DNA of 64,000 nt from Pandoraea thiooxydans (GTDB taxonomy: Bacteria > Pseudomonadota > Gammaproteobacteria > Burkholderiales > Burkholderiaceae). Location: assembly GCF_001931675.1 (NCBI RefSeq), contig NZ_CP014839.1:4154001-4218000 (forward strand). The letters are read 5' to 3'. This document shows positions 23,795 through 61,491 of the stretch, in pieces. Every line of letters begins with the position of its first letter. The stretch's first letter is position 1. Made by a program: the position numbers and the translations under genes. The notes beneath the pieces were generated by a model, which was given only the letters and a program-made list of their open reading frames with translations, did no database searches and had not been told where the DNA came from.

Positions 23795-23952
23795 CGGGTC
23801 GCTGGCCTTGCCGCACCGGCGAACAAATTTTGAATAAGACCTTAATCCCGGCCCTGTTTCGCCGATCGCCGCTTGACGTCTTCAACGACAATCGGTCCTG
23901 ATGGGGTGGGTCTCCCCGCCTACGGTACTGTGAAAAAAGGGCTTTGAAGGGC

Positions 23953-25110
23953 ATGGCTGAAGAGAGCGATCTCGAGCGCACCGAACCTGCGTCCCCCCGG
24001 CGCCTCGAACAGGCGCGCGAGGAAGGGCAGGTTGCGCGCTCGCGCGAATTGGCGACGTTCATGTTGCTGGCCGCCGGCGTTGGCGGCCTGTGGGCGATGG
24101 CCGGCAGCCTCTCGCAGCATTTCGCCGGGCTGCTGCGGCACAGCCTGAGCTTCGATCAGGCCAGCGCGCTCAACACGCACGTGATGATGGCGCGCGCCGG
24201 CGCCTCCGGCCTGGAAACGGTGCGCGTCATGCTGCCGCTGCTGGGCCTGATGGCGCTGGCGGCGCTGGTTGCGCCGATGATGCTGGGCGGCTGGCTGTTT
24301 TCGACCAAACCCCTGATGCCGCAATTTTCCCGGCTCAATCCGCTCAAGGGCCTGGGGCGAATGTTTTCCATGCAGAGCCTGGCCGAACTGGTCAAGGCGA
24401 TCGCCAAGACGATTCTGGTCGGGTGCGTCGCGCTGTGGGTGCTGCTGCGCGACCGCAACCAGGTGTTCGGGCTGATGGGGCAAGCGCCCGACGTGGCGCT
24501 GCGCCACGCCGTGCATCTGGTGGGCGAGTCGTGCGCGTTCATCGTCGGCTCGCTGCTGCTGATCGCCGCGCTCGACGTGCCGTTCCAGCTCTGGCAGCAC
24601 TATCGCAGGCTGCGCATGACGCGCGAGGAACTGCGCAACGAGTACAAGGAAACCGAGGGCGATCCGCACGTCAAGGCGCATATTCGCCAAATGCAGCGCC
24701 AGGCGGCGCGGCGCCGCATGATGGCGGCGGTGCCCAAGGCGGACGTGATCGTCACCAACCCGACCCACTTCGCGGTGGCGCTGCAATACGTCGACGACAC
24801 CATGCGCGCGCCGCGGGTGATCGCCAAGGGCGCCGACCTGGTCGCGCAGCGCATCCGCGAGCTCGGTCTCGAACACGGCGTACCGGTGCTCGAGGCGCCG
24901 CCGCTGGCGCGTGCGCTGTACCGCCACACCGACCTCAATCAGGAAATCCCTGCCACCCTCTACAACGCCGTGGCCGAAGTGCTGGCGTGGGTCTATCGGC
25001 TGCGCCGCTGGCGCGCCGAGGGCGGCGAGCGCCCGGTCGAGCCGGACGAACTGGCGGTGCCGCCTGAAATGGCGACCGGCGCGCCAGGCGCCGAAGGCGG
25101 TGCCGCATGA
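23953..25110 (+). CDS. flhB: Flagellar export gate protein FlhB
   Basis: FlhB is the substrate-specificity switch of the flagellar type III export gate. The 385-residue protein starts with the family motif 'SPRRLEQAREEGQVARSREL', has four membrane helices (about 36-58, 90-115, 140-165, 185-208) and a C-terminal cytoplasmic domain with the autocleavage motif NPTH ('VIVTNPTHFAVAL', about 268-280). ATG 23953 aligns with E. coli FlhB; a TTG nine bases upstream is possible. Its stop overlaps flhA (ATGA). A ~160-bp gap before it should hold the operon promoter. Confidence 0.96.
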   Translation: MAEESDLERTEPASPRRLEQAREEGQVARSRELATFMLLAAGVGGLWAMAGSLSQHFAGLLRHSLSFDQASALNTHVMMARAGASGLETVRVMLPLLGLMALAALVAPMMLGGWLFSTKPLMPQFSRLNPLKGLGRMFSMQSLAELVKAIAKTILVGCVALWVLLRDRNQVFGLMGQAPDVALRHAVHLVGESCAFIVGSLLLIAALDVPFQLWQHYRRLRMTREELRNEYKETEGDPHVKAHIRQMQRQAARRRMMAAVPKADVIVTNPTHFAVALQYVDDTMRAPRVIAKGADLVAQRIRELGLEHGVPVLEAPPLARALYRHTDLNQEIPATLYNAVAEVLAWVYRLRRWRAEGGERPVEPDELAVPPEMATGAPGAEGGAA

Positions 25111-47476: not shown

Positions 47477-48799
47477 TCAGGCGAAGGTGTCGACCAGCCC
47501 TCGCGCGATGCGCGCGGCGGCCGTGGCGGCGGCTGTGCCGGTGACTGAGCCGACACCGCCGAGGCTGGCCGGGCCGCTCTGGCGCGAGCCGTTTTGCCGC
47601 GCCTGGGCGTTGAACTGCTGGAACGCCTGCTGCTGTTGCGACGAATCGGCGCTGACCATGGTGTTGCCCAGCGCGATACCGTTGTCGGCCAGCGACGCGC
47701 GCAACTGCGGCAAGGCCGCCTGCACGGCGTCGCGTACCGCCGCGTGGGCCGAGACGAACAGCGCCTGGGCCTGGTTGTCGGCCACGTTGAGCACCACGTG
47801 CAGCGGCCCGAGATCGGGCGGATTCAACTGCAGCGCCGCGCTTTGCTGGTGCGCGCTGCTCAGCCACACCACCTGCTGGCTGAACGCCTGGCCCCAATGG
47901 GCGCTGTCGTCCAGGTGCGGGGTGAGCGTCATCACCAGGGGTGCGGCGGCCTGCAGCGGGACGGCGGGCTGCGCGGCGGCCGCAGTGTTGGTGCCGGCCT
48001 GGGCGGCCTGGATTTGCGCGGCCGCCTGCGCGGTTTGCGTGGCTTGATTCGCCTGGCTTGCCTGCACCGCTTGCGCGAGCTGATCGAGCAGCGCATTTTG
48101 TGTCGCGCCGTGCCCGTCGGCGGCTGCGCCGGCCTGCCGCGAGTTGCCCGGCGAAGTCGCGGCAGCCGCGCTCTTGCCCGATTTCGCGCCGTCTTGCCCG
48201 AGCATTTTCCCGGCTGCCGCATCGGCCCGAATCTGAGTGCCCGGGGCGGCGTCGCCCTGGGCGTCTGCGCTTGCGCCGGCGAGCAGCGCGGCGCCAACCG
48301 GCCCCGCCGGGCGCTTGGCGGCGCCATTCGTGCCGGTGGCGGCCAGCGCCGCCGGAGCCGTGGCCGGCGTGCCGGTGCCGGTCGCCGTCGAGGCGTTGCC
48401 TGCGCCGGCCTGCACCGGCAGATGACCTGCCATGGCCGCCAGCGCGCAGGCCAGCGCCGCATCGGGCGTGCCTGGGGCCGGGGTGGCGTGGTGCGCGTCG
48501 TGCTGGTCGGTTTGATCGGCATCCTGAGCGGTTTTGCCGGTCGACCCATCGGCGCCCTTGGTGCCGTTGGTGCCACTCGACGAGGTACTCGTCGAGGCAT
48601 GGGGCGATGGGCTCGGCGAGGCGCCGGCCTGGTCGGCCGAGCCGTTGCCGGACGGTGCCGCGTTGACGGCAGGCTCGGCATTGACCTGCTGATCGAGCAG
48701 CGCGCCGAAAGTGCCGTCGGCGCTGCCGCTGGCCGGGCTGGCGCTGGTGCTCGCGCTGGCGGCGGCGCCGCCCTGGTTGACGGGCGAGACGTTCAACAT
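47477..48799 (-). CDS. fliK: Flagellar hook-length control protein FliK
   Basis: FliK is the secreted molecular ruler that triggers the FlhB specificity switch. The 440-residue protein has a long Ala/Gly/Thr-rich, low-complexity N-terminal part and the conserved C-terminal domain ('LQLNPPDLGPLHVVLNVADN', 'LPQLRASLADNGIALGNTMV', about 300-380). The Gln-rich tail is typical. Its start overlaps the fliJ end by 7 bp, so it is the last gene of the fliF-to-fliK set. Confidence 0.94.
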   Translation of the reverse strand: MLNVSPVNQGGAAASASTSASPASGSADGTFGALLDQQVNAEPAVNAAPSGNGSADQAGASPSPSPHASTSTSSSGTNGTKGADGSTGKTAQDADQTDQHDAHHATPAPGTPDAALACALAAMAGHLPVQAGAGNASTATGTGTPATAPAALAATGTNGAAKRPAGPVGAALLAGASADAQGDAAPGTQIRADAAAGKMLGQDGAKSGKSAAAATSPGNSRQAGAAADGHGATQNALLDQLAQAVQASQANQATQTAQAAAQIQAAQAGTNTAAAAQPAVPLQAAAPLVMTLTPHLDDSAHWGQAFSQQVVWLSSAHQQSAALQLNPPDLGPLHVVLNVADNQAQALFVSAHAAVRDAVQAALPQLRASLADNGIALGNTMVSADSSQQQQAFQQFNAQARQNGSRQSGPASLGGVGSVTGTAAATAAARIARGLVDTFA

Positions 48800-54252: not shown

Positions 54253-54524
54253 GCGAACTCTCGCGAGCGCGGGGGCTGCCGCACGACGGTGAAAACTGCG
54301 ACTGGCATGGTGTCGAACTCTCCAAAAAACGCAAATTCCGGCCCAGGCGCGCACGGACCGGATTGTGCCGATTATTGGCCAGGGCAAGCCATTCCAATTG
54401 CTTGAAAAGCGGGGCCTTTTCCCGTTACTTGCACCGCTGGGGCCGGGCGGGCCGGTGCTAAGCTGCGTTTTGTCTGGAAATGGGCCTGATGGGCCCGGGT
54501 AAAACGGGCTTCCCGGAGAAAAGC
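54253..54524. promoter_or_regulatory. Divergent fliF / fliE promoter region
   Basis: The 272-bp gap between divergent fliF and fliE should contain both class II promoters. No sigma-28 match or obvious symmetric operator was seen. Confidence 0.45.
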
Positions 54525-54860
54525 ATGGCGATTTCAGGTATCGAATCGATGTTGCAACAACTGCGTGCGCTGGCGACCGGCGCGGCCGATCCGGCTGCCT
54601 CGGCCAGCTCGGCCGCGCCTGCCGGCGGTGCCTCGCCCGGCGGCTTTGCGTCGGCGCTGCAGGCATCGCTGCGCGACGTCAGCGCAGCCCAGAACCACGC
54701 CAACCAGCAGGCGCAGGCGTTCGAGCTCGGCGTGCCGGGCGTCGGGCTCAACGACGTCATGATCGACATGCAAAAGGCCAATATCGGCTTTCAGATGAGC
54801 CTGCAGGTGCGCAACAAACTGGTGTCCGCCTACACCACCATCAGCAATATGCCGGTCTGA
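54525..54860 (+). CDS. fliE: Flagellar hook-basal body protein FliE
   Basis: FliE joins the MS ring to the rod and is the first exported substrate. The 111-residue protein ends with 'LNDVMIDMQKANIGFQMSLQ' and 'VRNKLVSAYTTISNMPV', diagnostic of the family; the N-terminal half is Ala-rich. ATG 54525 with GGAGAAA 6 bp upstream is preferred over an in-frame start at 54480. It stands alone, convergent with fhlB with 5 bp between stops. Confidence 0.95.
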   Translation: MAISGIESMLQQLRALATGAADPAASASSAAPAGGASPGGFASALQASLRDVSAAQNHANQQAQAFELGVPGVGLNDVMIDMQKANIGFQMSLQVRNKLVSAYTTISNMPV

Positions 54861-54865
54861 TGCGA

Positions 54866-55213
54866 TCAGGTGCGCTGTCCACGTCCCGGGGCGCGCCGCA
54901 ACGGCGCCAGGGGCGGAGGCTTTGGCTTGGGCGGTGCCGGCTTGTCGGTCTTGCCGGCTTCCAGCCGGTACAGCCAGGCCAGCAGTTCCGCGACCGCCTG
55001 ATACAGCTGCGGCGGGATGCGGGCATCGAGATCGACCTGCATCAAAAGGCCCACCAGCTCGGGCGACTCATGCACGTACAGGCCATGCTCGCGAGCGGTG
55101 CGCACGATGGTGTCGGCCAGCAGCCCGTACCCCTTGGCGACCACGCGGGGCGCTTTTTCCTTGCCGGCGTAACTCAGCGCGATGGCGCTGCGCCGAGGGT
55201 CGTGCTTGCTCAT
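54866..55213 (-). CDS. fhlB: FhlB: stand-alone FlhB C-terminal-domain homologue
   Basis: The 115-residue soluble protein corresponds to the cytoplasmic FlhB(CC) segment after the NPTH cleavage site: 'RRSAIALSYAGKEKAPRVVA', 'KGYGLLADTIVRTAREHGLY', 'LDARIPPQLYQAVAELLAWL'. It lacks the N-terminal membrane part and has a Pro/Lys-rich tail. Such FhlB proteins can partly replace FlhB(CC) in export switching in other bacteria. Its ATG overlaps the stop of the FliK-like gene (ATGA), suggesting a joint role. Confidence 0.93.
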   Translation of the reverse strand: MSKHDPRRSAIALSYAGKEKAPRVVAKGYGLLADTIVRTAREHGLYVHESPELVGLLMQVDLDARIPPQLYQAVAELLAWLYRLEAGKTDKPAPPKPKPPPLAPLRRAPGRGQRT

Positions 55214-56394
55214 GGGACGGCACCCGCGTCGGCGGCCTCCGGTTTGTCATCGGGGATCGGCGCCGCAGCCGCTGGCGAGGCGCCCAACTGGCCGATGACC
55301 AATTGGCTGGTGCTCAGCCCGTTGGCGGAAAAGCGCTGACGCAAGTCGGCGCCGCCGCCGGCCAGCAATTCGGCGGTGCCCGCGTCGGCGGCCTCGATTT
55401 TGGCCTGCAGCTGATTGCCGACCAGCGCGAGACTCACTTCCACCGTACCGAGCTGGGCTAGCGACAGACGCAAATGCGTATGCCAGCTGCTGGGCGCCGG
55501 GCGCACGCCGGGCGGCGTGTCCGGCCGCCTTTCCTCGGCGTGCCATTGCAACGGCGCGCCCGGCCACGCCTCGCCTTGCCACTGGAAGCGTGGCACCACC
55601 AGCATCTCGAGCTGCTGGCGCACCAGATTCAGATTGCCGCTGACCCCCGCCTGAGCGGTTGTGCCGGCCGCCGCCAGGCCGCCTGGCGCGGCACTCGGCG
55701 TCGAGAGCTGCTGCGGGGCGGGCGCGGTGCCCTGTGCGGTGTTCGACGTCGTGCCTGACGGCGTCATGCCCTGGGCCAGCGCCGATGCCGCCGGCGTCGG
55801 CGCTGCCGTAGGCGGGCCGGCCGGGTTGGCCGAGTAGAGTGCGTGGGTCTGGCCGGACAAGGTCTCGCCCGATCCGGTGTCCGGATTGGCCGCCGATGCC
55901 GGCAGCCCGGCCAGCAGGCGGGTGTCGGGCGGCCACTGCGTTTGCGGCTCGGTTTGCAGTTGCTCGAGCGAGCGGCCGCCGCTGGCCCATTGCGCCAGGT
56001 GCGATTCGTAGAACAAGCCGCTGCTGTCCATCGCCTGATGCAGGGCCGCGACGATGACCGGCGCCAGCGCGTGCGTGGCATCGCCCGGCGGCAACGGCCA
56101 CAAAGGTTCGGTGCCGGTGACCGGGCCGGGCGCGTCCGGGGCCAGGCTCAGCAACGTATCGATGGTGCGTGCCGCGCTGCTGAGCACCGCCGGCGGGCGG
56201 GGCGGCGCGGCGCCGGTATTCAATTGGTGTGCGTCGGCGCCGTCGGTGGTGCTGCTCGGTGTGTCGGCGGCGACGGCGACGTTGGTCGAGGCGGACTCCC
56301 CGACGGCATTGGCCGGGGCACTGTCGAGCGCCTCCATCAGCACGTCGAGGCGGCGGGCGAGCGAGGAAGCCAGCAGGGAATCGAGGCCGACCAT
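55210..56394 (-). CDS. Second FliK-like hook-length control protein
   Basis: A 394-residue, Ala/Pro/Thr-rich protein with a folded C-terminal segment ('LRLSLAQLGTVEVSLALVGN', 'QLQAKIEAADAGTAELLAGG', 'ADLRQRFSANGLSTSQLVIG', about 305-370) that resembles the Flg_hook domain of FliK. The N-terminal half holds a predicted helix and long disordered linker. It is distinct from the fliK gene near 48 kb and is translationally coupled to fhlB. An alternative is a diverged regulator that works with FhlB rather than with FlhB. Confidence 0.75.
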   Translation of the reverse strand: MVGLDSLLASSLARRLDVLMEALDSAPANAVGESASTNVAVAADTPSSTTDGADAHQLNTGAAPPRPPAVLSSAARTIDTLLSLAPDAPGPVTGTEPLWPLPPGDATHALAPVIVAALHQAMDSSGLFYESHLAQWASGGRSLEQLQTEPQTQWPPDTRLLAGLPASAANPDTGSGETLSGQTHALYSANPAGPPTAAPTPAASALAQGMTPSGTTSNTAQGTAPAPQQLSTPSAAPGGLAAAGTTAQAGVSGNLNLVRQQLEMLVVPRFQWQGEAWPGAPLQWHAEERRPDTPPGVRPAPSSWHTHLRLSLAQLGTVEVSLALVGNQLQAKIEAADAGTAELLAGGGADLRQRFSANGLSTSQLVIGQLGASPAAAAPIPDDKPEAADAGAVP

Positions 56395-56464
56395 CTTGCT
56401 CCCCTTTCATCTTGTGGTGTCGAGCCGCGGCAACGCTGATGGTGAGCGCCGGCCGCGCGTGATC

Positions 56465-56797
56465 TCAACGGCTGTTGCCGTAAGCCTCTTGCAGGGCGCG
56501 CCGCTGATGCGAGCTGCGCAGCAGGCGGTCGAGATGCATCAGATGAGGCGTGGCCAGATCGCGAATGCGCGCGTCGTCATCCAGAATGCGGCGGATAACG
56601 GCATGCTTGCGCGCGCGCTGGCTGTCGTCGAGCGGCACCTGTGCGTCGACCGGCTTGAGTTCGTCGACGCGGGCGCGGTACTGCTTCTCGAGCTCGATCA
56701 GGCCGTCCCAGTCGCCGTCACGCGCGGCGCGCAGCATGTTTTGCGTCAGGCCGGCGATAAGCTCGTAATGCGACAGAAGCTCGGTGGCCGAATTCAT
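56465..56797 (-). CDS. fliT: Flagellar export chaperone FliT
   Basis: FliT is the chaperone of FliD and, in enterics, an inhibitor of FlhDC. The 110-residue helical protein ('NSATELLSHYELIAGLTQNM', 'ARDGDWDGLIELEKQYRARV', 'RRILDDDARIRDLATP') fits FliT in length, helix pattern and position after fliS, whose stop it overlaps by 4 bp. Confidence 0.88.
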   Translation of the reverse strand: MNSATELLSHYELIAGLTQNMLRAARDGDWDGLIELEKQYRARVDELKPVDAQVPLDDSQRARKHAVIRRILDDDARIRDLATPHLMHLDRLLRSSHQRRALQEAYGNSR

Positions 56798-57216
56798 GCG
56801 GGTACTCCCTGCGCGGCCACCTGGGCGGCAGCGGCCGCCGGATCGATCGCGCGCCAGGCCGAGCCGATGGTCTCGAGCAGAGCGTCGACGATTTGCAGCT
56901 GGTCGGCGTCGTTGTGGAGGTTGGCCAGCAGCAGTCGCTGATTCATATGGTCGTAGAGCTCGGCGAGCTGCTCGGCCAGCGCGCCGCCGGCCTCCATGTT
57001 CAGCGCGCCGCGCAGCCCGCCGATGATCGCAATGGCATGCGAGATCGCTTTGCCCTTGCCGGGTATGTCGCCTTGCTGCAGCAGGCGACGCGCATTGGCC
57101 AGGGCGGTGCGCGCGCCGTCGAACAGCATCACGATCAGTTGATGCGGGTTGGCCGCGATGACGCCGGTCTCCAGGCCGACTTTGCGGTACGCGTTGGCCG
57201 CGTTCATGCCGTACAT
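56794..57216 (-). CDS. fliS: Flagellin export chaperone FliS
   Basis: FliS binds the C-terminus of flagellin before export. The 140-residue protein has 'ANAYRKVGLETGVIAANPHQ', 'LIVMLFDGARTALANARRLL', and 'LYDHMNQRLLLANLHNDADQ', the classic four-helix pattern. It lies 29 bp after fliD and overlaps fliT. Confidence 0.96.
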   Translation of the reverse strand: MYGMNAANAYRKVGLETGVIAANPHQLIVMLFDGARTALANARRLLQQGDIPGKGKAISHAIAIIGGLRGALNMEAGGALAEQLAELYDHMNQRLLLANLHNDADQLQIVDALLETIGSAWRAIDPAAAAAQVAAQGVPA

Positions 57217-57245: not shown

Positions 57246-59333
57246 TTAGCCTTTGGTGGACGAACCCGACGACGAGCCTGAGGAGCCCGACGAACCGGAG
57301 GACGATCCCGTTGAAGTGCCAAGCACTTGCTGCAAATAGTTGCTGGTGCTGTTGAGCTGCGAGATGGTCGCGTCCAGCGCGGTGAATTGCGCCAGATACG
57401 TGTTCTGCATCTGAGTCATTTGCGCCTGCCAGTCGGTCTGCGCCTTGGTCAGGCTGGTGATCGTCTGGTTCAGGCTGTTGGTCGCCGAGGTCAGCGCGCC
57501 CGAGCTGCCGAGAAACCCGGTGATCTGGCTCGACAGCAGGCTGGCGTAGCCCTGCGAAAAATTGAGCGTGCCCCGGCTGCCGGTGGTCGTGCCCTGCACG
57601 CTGATCTGCAGGCCGGCGACCGCCGTGCCGGGCGCGCCGGTGAGCGTCTGGCCGCTGCCGGTGGTGGCATATCCGCCGATCGTGCCGGCGATGTCCAGGC
57701 CGGTGGTGTTGGTGGTCGTGCCGATCAATGAGGCGTAGCCGTTGCCGCCGGTAAACGACACGTTCGAAGCGCTGCCATAGCGGTTCGAGGTGAATTTCAG
57801 CACGCCGCCGCTTTGCGTGACGGCGACCGTCGAGCCGGCGTTGGCGAAGGTGGTGTTGCCGTTGACGGCCGACTGGATTGCCGTGGCGAGCGCGCTGGCG
57901 GTGTAGGTGCCGGCCGGAATCGTGATGCTGGACGAAACATTGTCGAGCGTGAGATTCAGTGTGTTGTTGCCGCTGCCGATGACGGTGCTCGCGCCGAGCG
58001 TCACCGAGCCTGTCGCGCTGCCCTGCGTGGCCGCCTGCGTGACGTTGACGGCGTATTGCCCGGCTTGCGTGCTGGCGCTCGAGCCGAGATAGCTGACCAG
58101 ACTGTCGGTGGCCGTGCCGTTGGTGGCAAACAGCGACGCCAGTTGGCTGAAATTGTTGTTGACCGCGTTTTGCAGCTTGGTCGAGTCGACCGATAGCGAG
58201 CCGTCGGCCTGGAACTGCACGCCGACCTGGGTGAGCGTGGACAGCGCCGACTGGCCGACTCCGGGCAGCGGGTTGTCCAGCACCGAGCGAATCTGGTTTT
58301 GAATCAGCTGCACGGTCGGGTCGCCGAGTAGCGCGCCGGTGTTCTGGCCAGTGCTGTCATAGGCGGTGAGCGAGCTGATCGCGCTGTTGAGCGTGTTGTA
58401 GGCCGAGACGAAACCGTTGACCGCGGACGTGACGCCGGCGGTGTTGTTGGCGGTCGTGACGGTGGCGGTGCCTGCCTTGAGCAGGTTCAGGCTCACGCCC
58501 TGAATCGCGCCGGCGACGGTATTGGTGCTGCTGGATACGGCCAGGCCGTTGACCGTGAGCTGGGCATTTTGCGCCGCCGCCGTCTGGGTCATGTCCTGCG
58601 TGCCGGTCGGGTCGTAGCTGAGCAGGCCGGCGATGGCGCTGTCGGGCGAGCCGCTGCCGGTGGCGCTGCTCGCGCTGATGCGCATGCTCATGTTCTGGCC
58701 GGTCGAGGTCGACGTCAGCACCAGGCGATAGGGGTTGCTGCTGCCGTCATTGACGATGGTCGCCTGCACGCCGCCGTTGGCGGCGTTGATCGCGTTGGCG
58801 ATGCCCTGCAGCGTGTTGTTGCTGCTGTCGATGGTGACCGACAGCGATTGTTGTGCGGCATTCTGGGCGAACGAGGCGCCGCTGTAGGTGCCATTGCTCA
58901 GCGTGCCGCCGCTGATGGTGCCGAAATCGATCGTCAGCTTGGTCGGCGTGCCGCTGCCGATGGTGCTGGTGGTGCTGGCCACGCCGGCCGCGCTCAGGCT
59001 CTGGGCCTGGGCCAATTGCGAAACGTTGACGCTGAAGTTGCCGGCCTGTGCACCGCTGGCGGCAGTGGCCGTGACGATGGTTTTGTCGCTGCTGTCGGCC
59101 GACAACTGCAAAAATTGAGACGGGTCGGACAGGCTGCTGAGCGACGACTGGAACGAGCTCAGCGCGCTTTTCAAGGCGCCGAAGGCCGACAGGGTGGTCT
59201 GGTAGCTTTGCTGCTGCGATTTGAGCAGCGTGAGCTTGTTTTGCGCGGGCTGCATCAAGCTCGTCACCAGGGCGTTGACGTCCAGTCCCGAGCCGATGCC
59301 GGGGGAAGAAACAAGGCCTGATGAGCTCGACAT
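57246..59333 (-). CDS. fliD: Filament cap protein FliD (hook-associated protein 2)
   Basis: FliD caps the filament and folds incoming flagellin. The 695-residue protein is longer than E. coli FliD (468). 'SSPGIGSGLDVNALVTSLMQ' and 'PAQNKLTLLKSQQQSYQTTL' mark the N-terminus, and a C-terminal coiled coil ('ALTSATNSLNQTITSLTKAQ') ends in a Ser/Gly tail. The extra length lies in Ser/Thr/Gly-rich central domains with Flagellin_IN-like repeats ('NTLQGIANAINAANGGVQAT'). Such enlarged FliD occurs in several Burkholderiales. Confidence 0.95.
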   Translation of the reverse strand: MSSSSGLVSSPGIGSGLDVNALVTSLMQPAQNKLTLLKSQQQSYQTTLSAFGALKSALSSFQSSLSSLSDPSQFLQLSADSSDKTIVTATAASGAQAGNFSVNVSQLAQAQSLSAAGVASTTSTIGSGTPTKLTIDFGTISGGTLSNGTYSGASFAQNAAQQSLSVTIDSSNNTLQGIANAINAANGGVQATIVNDGSSNPYRLVLTSTSTGQNMSMRISASSATGSGSPDSAIAGLLSYDPTGTQDMTQTAAAQNAQLTVNGLAVSSSTNTVAGAIQGVSLNLLKAGTATVTTANNTAGVTSAVNGFVSAYNTLNSAISSLTAYDSTGQNTGALLGDPTVQLIQNQIRSVLDNPLPGVGQSALSTLTQVGVQFQADGSLSVDSTKLQNAVNNNFSQLASLFATNGTATDSLVSYLGSSASTQAGQYAVNVTQAATQGSATGSVTLGASTVIGSGNNTLNLTLDNVSSSITIPAGTYTASALATAIQSAVNGNTTFANAGSTVAVTQSGGVLKFTSNRYGSASNVSFTGGNGYASLIGTTTNTTGLDIAGTIGGYATTGSGQTLTGAPGTAVAGLQISVQGTTTGSRGTLNFSQGYASLLSSQITGFLGSSGALTSATNSLNQTITSLTKAQTDWQAQMTQMQNTYLAQFTALDATISQLNSTSNYLQQVLGTSTGSSSGSSGSSGSSSGSSTKG

Positions 59334-61151: not shown

Positions 61152-61491
61152 TTAGCCACTCCTTTTCCCGTAAATAGGCATTCGGCGAACCCGCCGTAAC
61201 TTTGGCCCTGCGGCGCATGCCGCGGAAAAAAGCCGCCGTTGTTTGGGTTATCGGACGCTTGCCGGAAAAATTTAGGGTATGCGCGATGTTTCGCCGCAAT
61301 GAATGCGACAGGCATGCGCTTCCCTGCCCACTGTTCGGGAGTCCTGACAGGCCTCATGACAGTGTAGTGGCGGGGCGGGAAGCCGATCGGTCGAGCAGAG
61401 GCGAGAACCGGGCTTTAATCAGGGATTGCCCGGGGATATGGGGTCGGGGCGGTACCGGCACGCAGTGGCGCCGCCGCCGTGTTTGAGCCGT
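61152..61491. promoter_or_regulatory. fliC upstream region
   Basis: The 340-bp gap between fliC and the response-regulator gene, both on the minus strand. It holds the fliC leader and the sigma-28 promoter. CCGGGC (61408-61413) and GCCCGG (61428-61433), followed on the minus strand by a short pyrimidine run, could form a weak terminator behind the response regulator gene. No further gene is seen. Confidence 0.5.
61248..61274 (-). promoter_or_regulatory. Sigma-28 promoter of fliC
   Basis: On the minus strand -35 TAAATTTT, an 11-base spacer and -10 TCCGATAA match the consensus at 7 of 8 bases in each box. The -10 box lies 96 bp upstream of the fliC ATG, leaving a leader of about 90 bases with an AAGGAG ribosome site. 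Confidence 0.85.

Follow-up and report, generated by a model that had tools for sequence, protein, structure and literature searches.

A conserved fliK2-fhlB gene pair as a candidate accessory component of the flagellar export switch

The flagellar specificity switch, in which FliK and FlhB signal that hook assembly should end, has been modelled mainly on Salmonella, an organism that is not known to carry fhlB. What does a stand-alone version of the FlhB C-terminal domain do in a bacterium that also encodes full-length FlhB, and what does it mean that its gene is joined to that of a second FliK-like protein? These questions are raised by a 64,000-nucleotide stretch of DNA from Pandoraea thiooxydans, a member of the Burkholderiales (the whole stretch is hereafter referred to as the window). 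The initial annotation of the window had described an fhlB gene overlapping a FliK-like gene by ATGA, apart from the ordinary fliK and flhB, and had suggested that the two genes could form an accessory or alternative specificity-switch module.

The window locus and its two proteins

Both open reading frames lie exactly where the initial annotation had placed them. The second FliK-like gene, henceforth fliK2 (394 aa), occupies positions 55210–56394 of the minus strand, and its stop codon overlaps the start codon of fhlB (115 aa; 54866–55213, minus strand) in a 4-nt ATGA at 55210–55213 of the same strand. The canonical fliK, whose product ends in GLVDTFA (47477–48799, minus strand; Flg_hook match at G000:C1:4201627-4201878, E = 1.8e-20), and full-length flhB, whose product contains NPTH (23902–25110, plus strand, as a stop-to-stop ORF; PF01312, E = 4e-132), are both found elsewhere, as had been noted. 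A purine-rich, Shine-Dalgarno-like stretch, AAAGGGGA, precedes fliK2 (56400–56407, minus strand), whereas none is visible in the window ahead of fhlB. Given this difference and the ATGA overlap, fhlB is probably translated by coupling to fliK2.

The order of genes along the minus strand is a fliD-like ORF (57246–59333; named from its position and content, with no profile scan), fliS (56794–57216; PF02561, E = 1.3e-35), fliT (56465–56797; PF05400, E = 6.2e-24), fliK2 and fhlB, with gaps of 29, -4, 70 and -4 nt. The pair is flanked on its other side by fliE (54480–54860, plus strand; PF02049, E = 2.5e-27), which is convergent with fhlB such that the two genes end 5 nt apart, and by fliF. A promoter pattern scan of the window found no sigma-28-like site immediately 5' of fliD or fliK2; a sigma-28-like match with 1 mismatch is present near or upstream of fliC (61248–61274, minus strand). 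At 3.07 Mb the same genome encodes a further full-length FlhB-type protein (L006; G000:C1:3074038-3075045), which is perhaps the SctU of an injectisome.

The window FhlB passes the PF01312 gathering score (65.8 bits against a cut-off of 24.4; E = 5.3e-18) and covers just the last 79 of the 335 profile positions (257–335), the N-terminal membrane part being absent. Where FlhB has the NPTH autocleavage motif, the window protein has DPRR. NPTH is found in 0 of 223 FhlB ORFs compared with 46 of 53 FlhB proteins, and the remaining 7 FlhB proteins retain NP. In profile searches FhlB matches FlhB structures. Proteins of this kind have been named previously: Bmul_3056 of Burkholderia multivorans is called fhlB (PMC8231446), FlhX is listed in Campylobacterota (PMC9321776), and the NCBIfam family TIGR00789 comprises FlhB-related proteins that, like the window FhlB, are stand-alone FlhB C-terminal domains. 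The window protein differs from these in being tied to a dedicated FliK-like gene and in scoring under the curated TIGR00789 cut-off (86.1 against 117.35 bits, though with E = 1.4e-24). Its C-terminal tail (54866–54960, minus strand) is proline-rich, with 9 Pro among the last 25 residues, and at least 5 Pro are present in the last 25 residues of 8 of 41 FhlB proteins from the same order. In this respect the window tail is like the proline-rich element known from FlhB in beta- and gammaproteobacteria (PMC7771051).

Residues 299–370 of the window FliK2 (55285–55500, minus strand) match the Flg_hook/FliK profile PF02120 at 57.3 bits (E = 1.4e-15; cut-off 29.8). FliK2 thus shares with FliK, the hook-length control protein, a T3S4 domain at the C terminus that passes the Pfam cut-off, but differs from it in having its own N-terminal half, a separate locus and, in this order, no VDx(F/Y)A tail. 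The N-terminal half is marked by the motif SGxFYE (SGLFYESH in the window protein, residues 125–132; 55999–56022, minus strand), which is present in 41 of 41 same-order FliK2 proteins and in 0 of 31 canonical FliK proteins, and which forms invariant columns in an alignment. A model of the N-terminal OB-type domain identifies it in 34 of the 41, the proteins scored including the 15 donors of the model itself; the seven proteins in which it is not recognised are the window protein, five others of its family and one other. The pattern used for the VDx(F/Y)A-type tail was matched by 23 of 25 canonical FliK proteins of Pseudomonadota, with the other two very close, and by 0 of the 41 same-order FliK2 proteins. 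The window FliK2 matched no solved structure by sequence. No ORF carried both profiles, as a FliK2-FhlB fusion would, and a search of plasmids with FliK2 returned just five weak matches (four from Cupriavidus and one from Pseudomonas).

These features bear on the possibility that FhlB is simply a back-up for FlhBCC and FliK2 a back-up FliK, a redundant duplicate with no distinct role. The domain types are identical to those of the ordinary switch, and a paper on H. pylori HP1575, known from its title only, offers a precedent in describing that protein as a "spare part" for FlhBCC. However, the possession of SGxFYE and, in most cases, an N-terminal domain of its own, together with the FliK tail missing in this order, makes FliK2 unlike a recent copy, and the pair has been retained across two phyla. 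We therefore regard redundancy as unlikely.

Conservation of the pair within and beyond the order

Among 120 genomes of the same order that we scanned, 87 had an FhlB- or FlhB-type match and 76 a stand-alone FhlB. A FliK2 homologue lies directly upstream of fhlB, on the same strand, at 30 of 30 same-order loci (the window included), and the arrangement is therefore not due to chance. The two genes usually overlap by 4–23 nt. In two of the loci, L011 and L029, the reading frames are not contiguous, and that of fliK2 seems to be disrupted in L029. At least 70 of the 76 genomes with a stand-alone fhlB have a FliK-domain gene directly upstream of it, a figure made up of 67 with Flg_hook no more than 500 nt upstream among the matches listed and three confirmed otherwise (G119, G057 and G008), with G051, G001, G096, G097, G017 and G108 left out for the upstream partner.

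Is FliK2 ever found alone? We ran a FliK2 model on 25 genomes of the order in which no FhlB was detected, chosen because most have FlhB or a FliK-type match. It matched either nothing or a C-terminal domain only, the latter being equally expected of canonical FliK. The exception is G058 (L384). Here a FliK2-like ORF comes after a fliT-like ORF, but the place next to it is not taken by fhlB; ~4 kb farther on lies a diverged stretch that resembles FhlB and contains an in-frame stop. FliK2 without FhlB is not clearly seen, and this single case is doubtful.

We also examined what lies upstream of fhlB across 110 genomes, taking one locus for each and the longest ORF, counting the window and repeated entries a single time, and leaving out L100, which had no upstream candidate. 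Flg_hook was detected in the upstream ORF of 90 genomes. Among the 20 upstream ORFs without it, five matched CorA, two matched CsrA and the others had no match; the HpaP profile was matched by 9 of the 110. The corA-type transporter gene precedes fhlB in one family (L063, L065, L066, L067, L097 and L204), where a FliK2 homologue is encoded 9.6 kb away on the same strand (seen in L204), and in two loci of other classes (L107 and L112) csrA rather than fliK2 is located directly ahead of fhlB, constituting a second recurrent neighbourhood.

Outside the order but within the phylum, we took 71 genomes, approximately one per family (f52–f127), from those already known to have an FhlB or FlhB match. 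The adjacent pair was present in 36 of them, fhlB without an adjacent partner in 14 and no fhlB in 21, frequencies that belong to this sample and are not phylum-wide rates. (G201 was counted as having the pair, with FliK2 directly ahead of an FhlB whose open frame exceeds 300 aa.) Copies of Flg_hook outnumber copies of full FlhB in 38 of the 50 fhlB-bearing genomes and in 0 of the 21 that lack the gene (Fisher p = 6e-10). FliK2 occurs only where FhlB is present in the 71-genome sample, while FhlB can exist without FliK2: 12 of the 14 genomes lacking an adjacent FliK2 have no extra FliK at all. In family f87 (G152) FliK2 and fhlB are separated by 9.6 kb. The initial annotation had proposed co-occurrence as a check on the module, with widespread fhlB lacking a FliK-like partner as the result that would speak against it. 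Conservation of the pair is wide both within the order and beyond it; at the same time fhlB without a neighbouring partner is seen in 14 of 50 genomes outside the order, and FliK2 is evidently not essential to FhlB, which counts against reading the two as a module.

The linkage of the two genes might alternatively reflect a common role outside the flagellar switch, such as another export or regulatory task. This would fit the fhlB genes that adjoin csrA or corA, as well as the many copies in Bacilli and in the same class that lie away from canonical fliK. Yet full FlhB is also encoded in 49 of the 50 fhlB-bearing genomes of the family-wise sample, and the window pair sits between the fliD-like ORF, fliS and fliT on one side and fliE and fliF on the other. 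We regard this reading as very unlikely.

An arrangement of the same kind is found in Bacilli. Scanning with a typed consensus probe yielded 80 loci, and in all 80 an ORF of 421–738 aa ends just ahead of FhlB, in the same two-gene order as in the window. In Bacillus the corresponding genes are named ylqG-ylqH. Flg_hook was detected in 10 of 27 of the Bacilli upstream ORFs at E ≤ 1 (best, 3.4e-6) and in 22 of 28 upstream ORFs from a wider Bacillota sample at E ≤ 0.1, and profile-profile alignment of Burkholderiales-type FliK2 with the Bacilli ORF was collinear (E = 1.1e-4, probability 56%). In the AF2 model of the Bacilli protein (mean pLDDT 85.5), the N-terminal part forms an OB-type barrel, which matches many OB folds, and the first Foldseek match of the C-terminal part is the SS (switch) domain of PscP (5cuk; E = 0.046, prob 1.00). 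The FliK C-domain 2rrl gave a VIA Z of 5.8, and the fold listings for the C-terminal half held nothing convincing besides 2rrl and 5cuk. Being weak by E-value and Z, these structural matches support, but do not prove, the assignment of the predicted Bacilli protein as FliK2-type.

The Bacilli FliK2 is longer than that of the window and ends in a conserved GVDIRI-like tail (79 of 80 by a strict pattern). The tail, which resembles the VDxFA of proteobacterial FliK, is thus present in Bacilli (L123-L202) and also in many loci of the wider Bacillota sample (L211-L238). A canonical FliK, with Flg_hook above the cut-off, is encoded away from the pair in 14 of 14 Bacilli genomes tested. Our literature search found no functional paper on ylqG or ylqH. 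The substitution P457Q in ylqG, which appears in a table from swarming evolution of B. subtilis, was rejected as evidence since the clones also bear other mutations.

The closest published parallel that we found is in Nitratiruptor, for which "flhX-fliK" are named jointly as genes outside the main flagellar cluster, an FlhX gene and a FliK gene named together as in the window pair; the passages on these genes connect them neither with a second FliK nor with other phyla (PMC9321776). Beyond this mention we found no paper on the FliK2-FhlB pair, including interaction or hook-length data, although this is weak evidence of absence, as most subscription papers lay outside the search.

Origin of FliK2 and FhlB

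In a tree of 131 FliK domains, a single branch separates the 55 canonical rows from the 76 FliK2 rows (SH-aLRT 92), on 89 alignment columns, which are few for that number of rows. FhlB (75) and FlhB (53) are likewise split at one branch (SH-aLRT 96). AU tests did not reject a separate FliK duplication in the order (p = 0.109) or separate FhlB/FlhB duplications in Pseudomonadota (p = 0.398). An old single origin of FliK2 and of FhlB is favoured by these sequence comparisons but unproved, and transfer of the pair between phyla is possible. That fliK2 arose from a recent fliK duplication within this lineage is disfavoured by the tree and by the motif peculiar to FliK2, although the AU test does not reject it.

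A possible role at the export gate

We consider it reasonably probable, from comparative evidence, that fliK2 and fhlB form an accessory module of flagellar type III export that is old and co-inherited, with FliK2 as the dedicated partner of FhlB. FhlB would represent a free version of the C-terminal domain that FlhB yields on cleavage (FlhBCC, or FlhBCCD), a version for which cleavage is unneeded, and FliK2 a FliK relative that is probably no hook ruler and whose T3S4 domain may be dedicated to FhlB binding. Probably made together via translational coupling, the two proteins could act in concert: FhlB would most likely occupy, or compete for, the FlhBCC position at or near the export gate, and FliK2 would hold, deliver or remove FhlB and so tune when the gate leaves hook-type secretion.

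Precedents from two systems lead us to favour a model in which FhlB sits at the FlhBCC site or close to it and is partnered by FliK2. Work in Salmonella reports that FlhBCCD docks early substrates, that its loss requires FliK and that secretion is locked in the late mode once the domain and Fluke are both removed; the final residues of FliK have been proposed to engage FlhBCCD and eject it (PMC13344023). Since the cleaved domain is reported to dock early substrates in that organism, FhlB is a possible stand-in for it, and the type of domain that makes contact with it is present in FliK2. In the second system, that of HrcU, the C-domain (HrcUC) is able to function in trans and is bound by HpaC, a T3S4 protein described as cytoplasmic (PMC3040844). 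HpaC/HpaP and YscP/PscP, the T3S4 proteins of injectisomes, have a switch domain related to that of FliK2, but act on the C-domain of full-length HrcU/YscU, whereas FliK2 is paired with a separate FlhB-like protein. As the window FliK2 lacks the tail that has been proposed for ejection of FlhBCCD by canonical FliK, FliK2 is by analogy likelier to be a holder or carrier of FhlB than an ejector in the window's order.

Several points argue against the module reading. In Xanthomonas the binding of HpaC to HrcUC requires the NPTH region (PMC3040844), which is missing from FhlB. In addition, the AU tests leave room for separate duplications, and FhlB falls below the TIGR00789 cut-off. The accessory module proposed in the initial annotation is thus partly supported. 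It fits a pair of domain types known to act on each other, encoded by probably coupled genes, conserved in order in Pseudomonadota and Bacillota and accompanied by the excess of FliK copies seen with fhlB; FhlB is not strictly dependent on FliK2.

Two other roles at the gate merit consideration. FhlB could act as a sink that titrates canonical FliK or early substrates off FlhB, with FliK2 relieving this effect, the two together setting the threshold for switching. FhlB retains the fold that is contacted in FlhB by FliK and by early substrates, judging from its profile matches, and docking of early substrates in FlhBCCD has been reported (PMC13344023); such a sink would, however, predict a strong overexpression phenotype, and we view it as distinctly unlikely. 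More speculatively, FhlB might serve as an exchangeable FlhBCC cartridge: once the hook is complete and FliK has ejected the native cleaved domain, a new FhlB carried by FliK2 would re-occupy the site and return the gate to its early mode, making the switch resettable. In the lineage of the window FhlB is encoded beside the fliD-like ORF, fliS and fliT. We hold this last idea to be very unlikely, yet if it were true a supposedly irreversible specificity switch would be resettable in bacteria bearing the pair.

To return to the reading of an accessory module, the pair recurs with its gene order unchanged in many bacteria that are only distantly related, which makes it look like a genuine, though unstudied, accessory component of the export switch. 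In laboratory strains amenable to genetics, the pair offers a direct genetic test of the supply of FlhBCC in trans and of the factors that maintain early secretion or reset it. A widely conserved second pair of the FliK/FlhB type would mean that an additional, unstudied layer of the switch is present in many flagellated bacteria.
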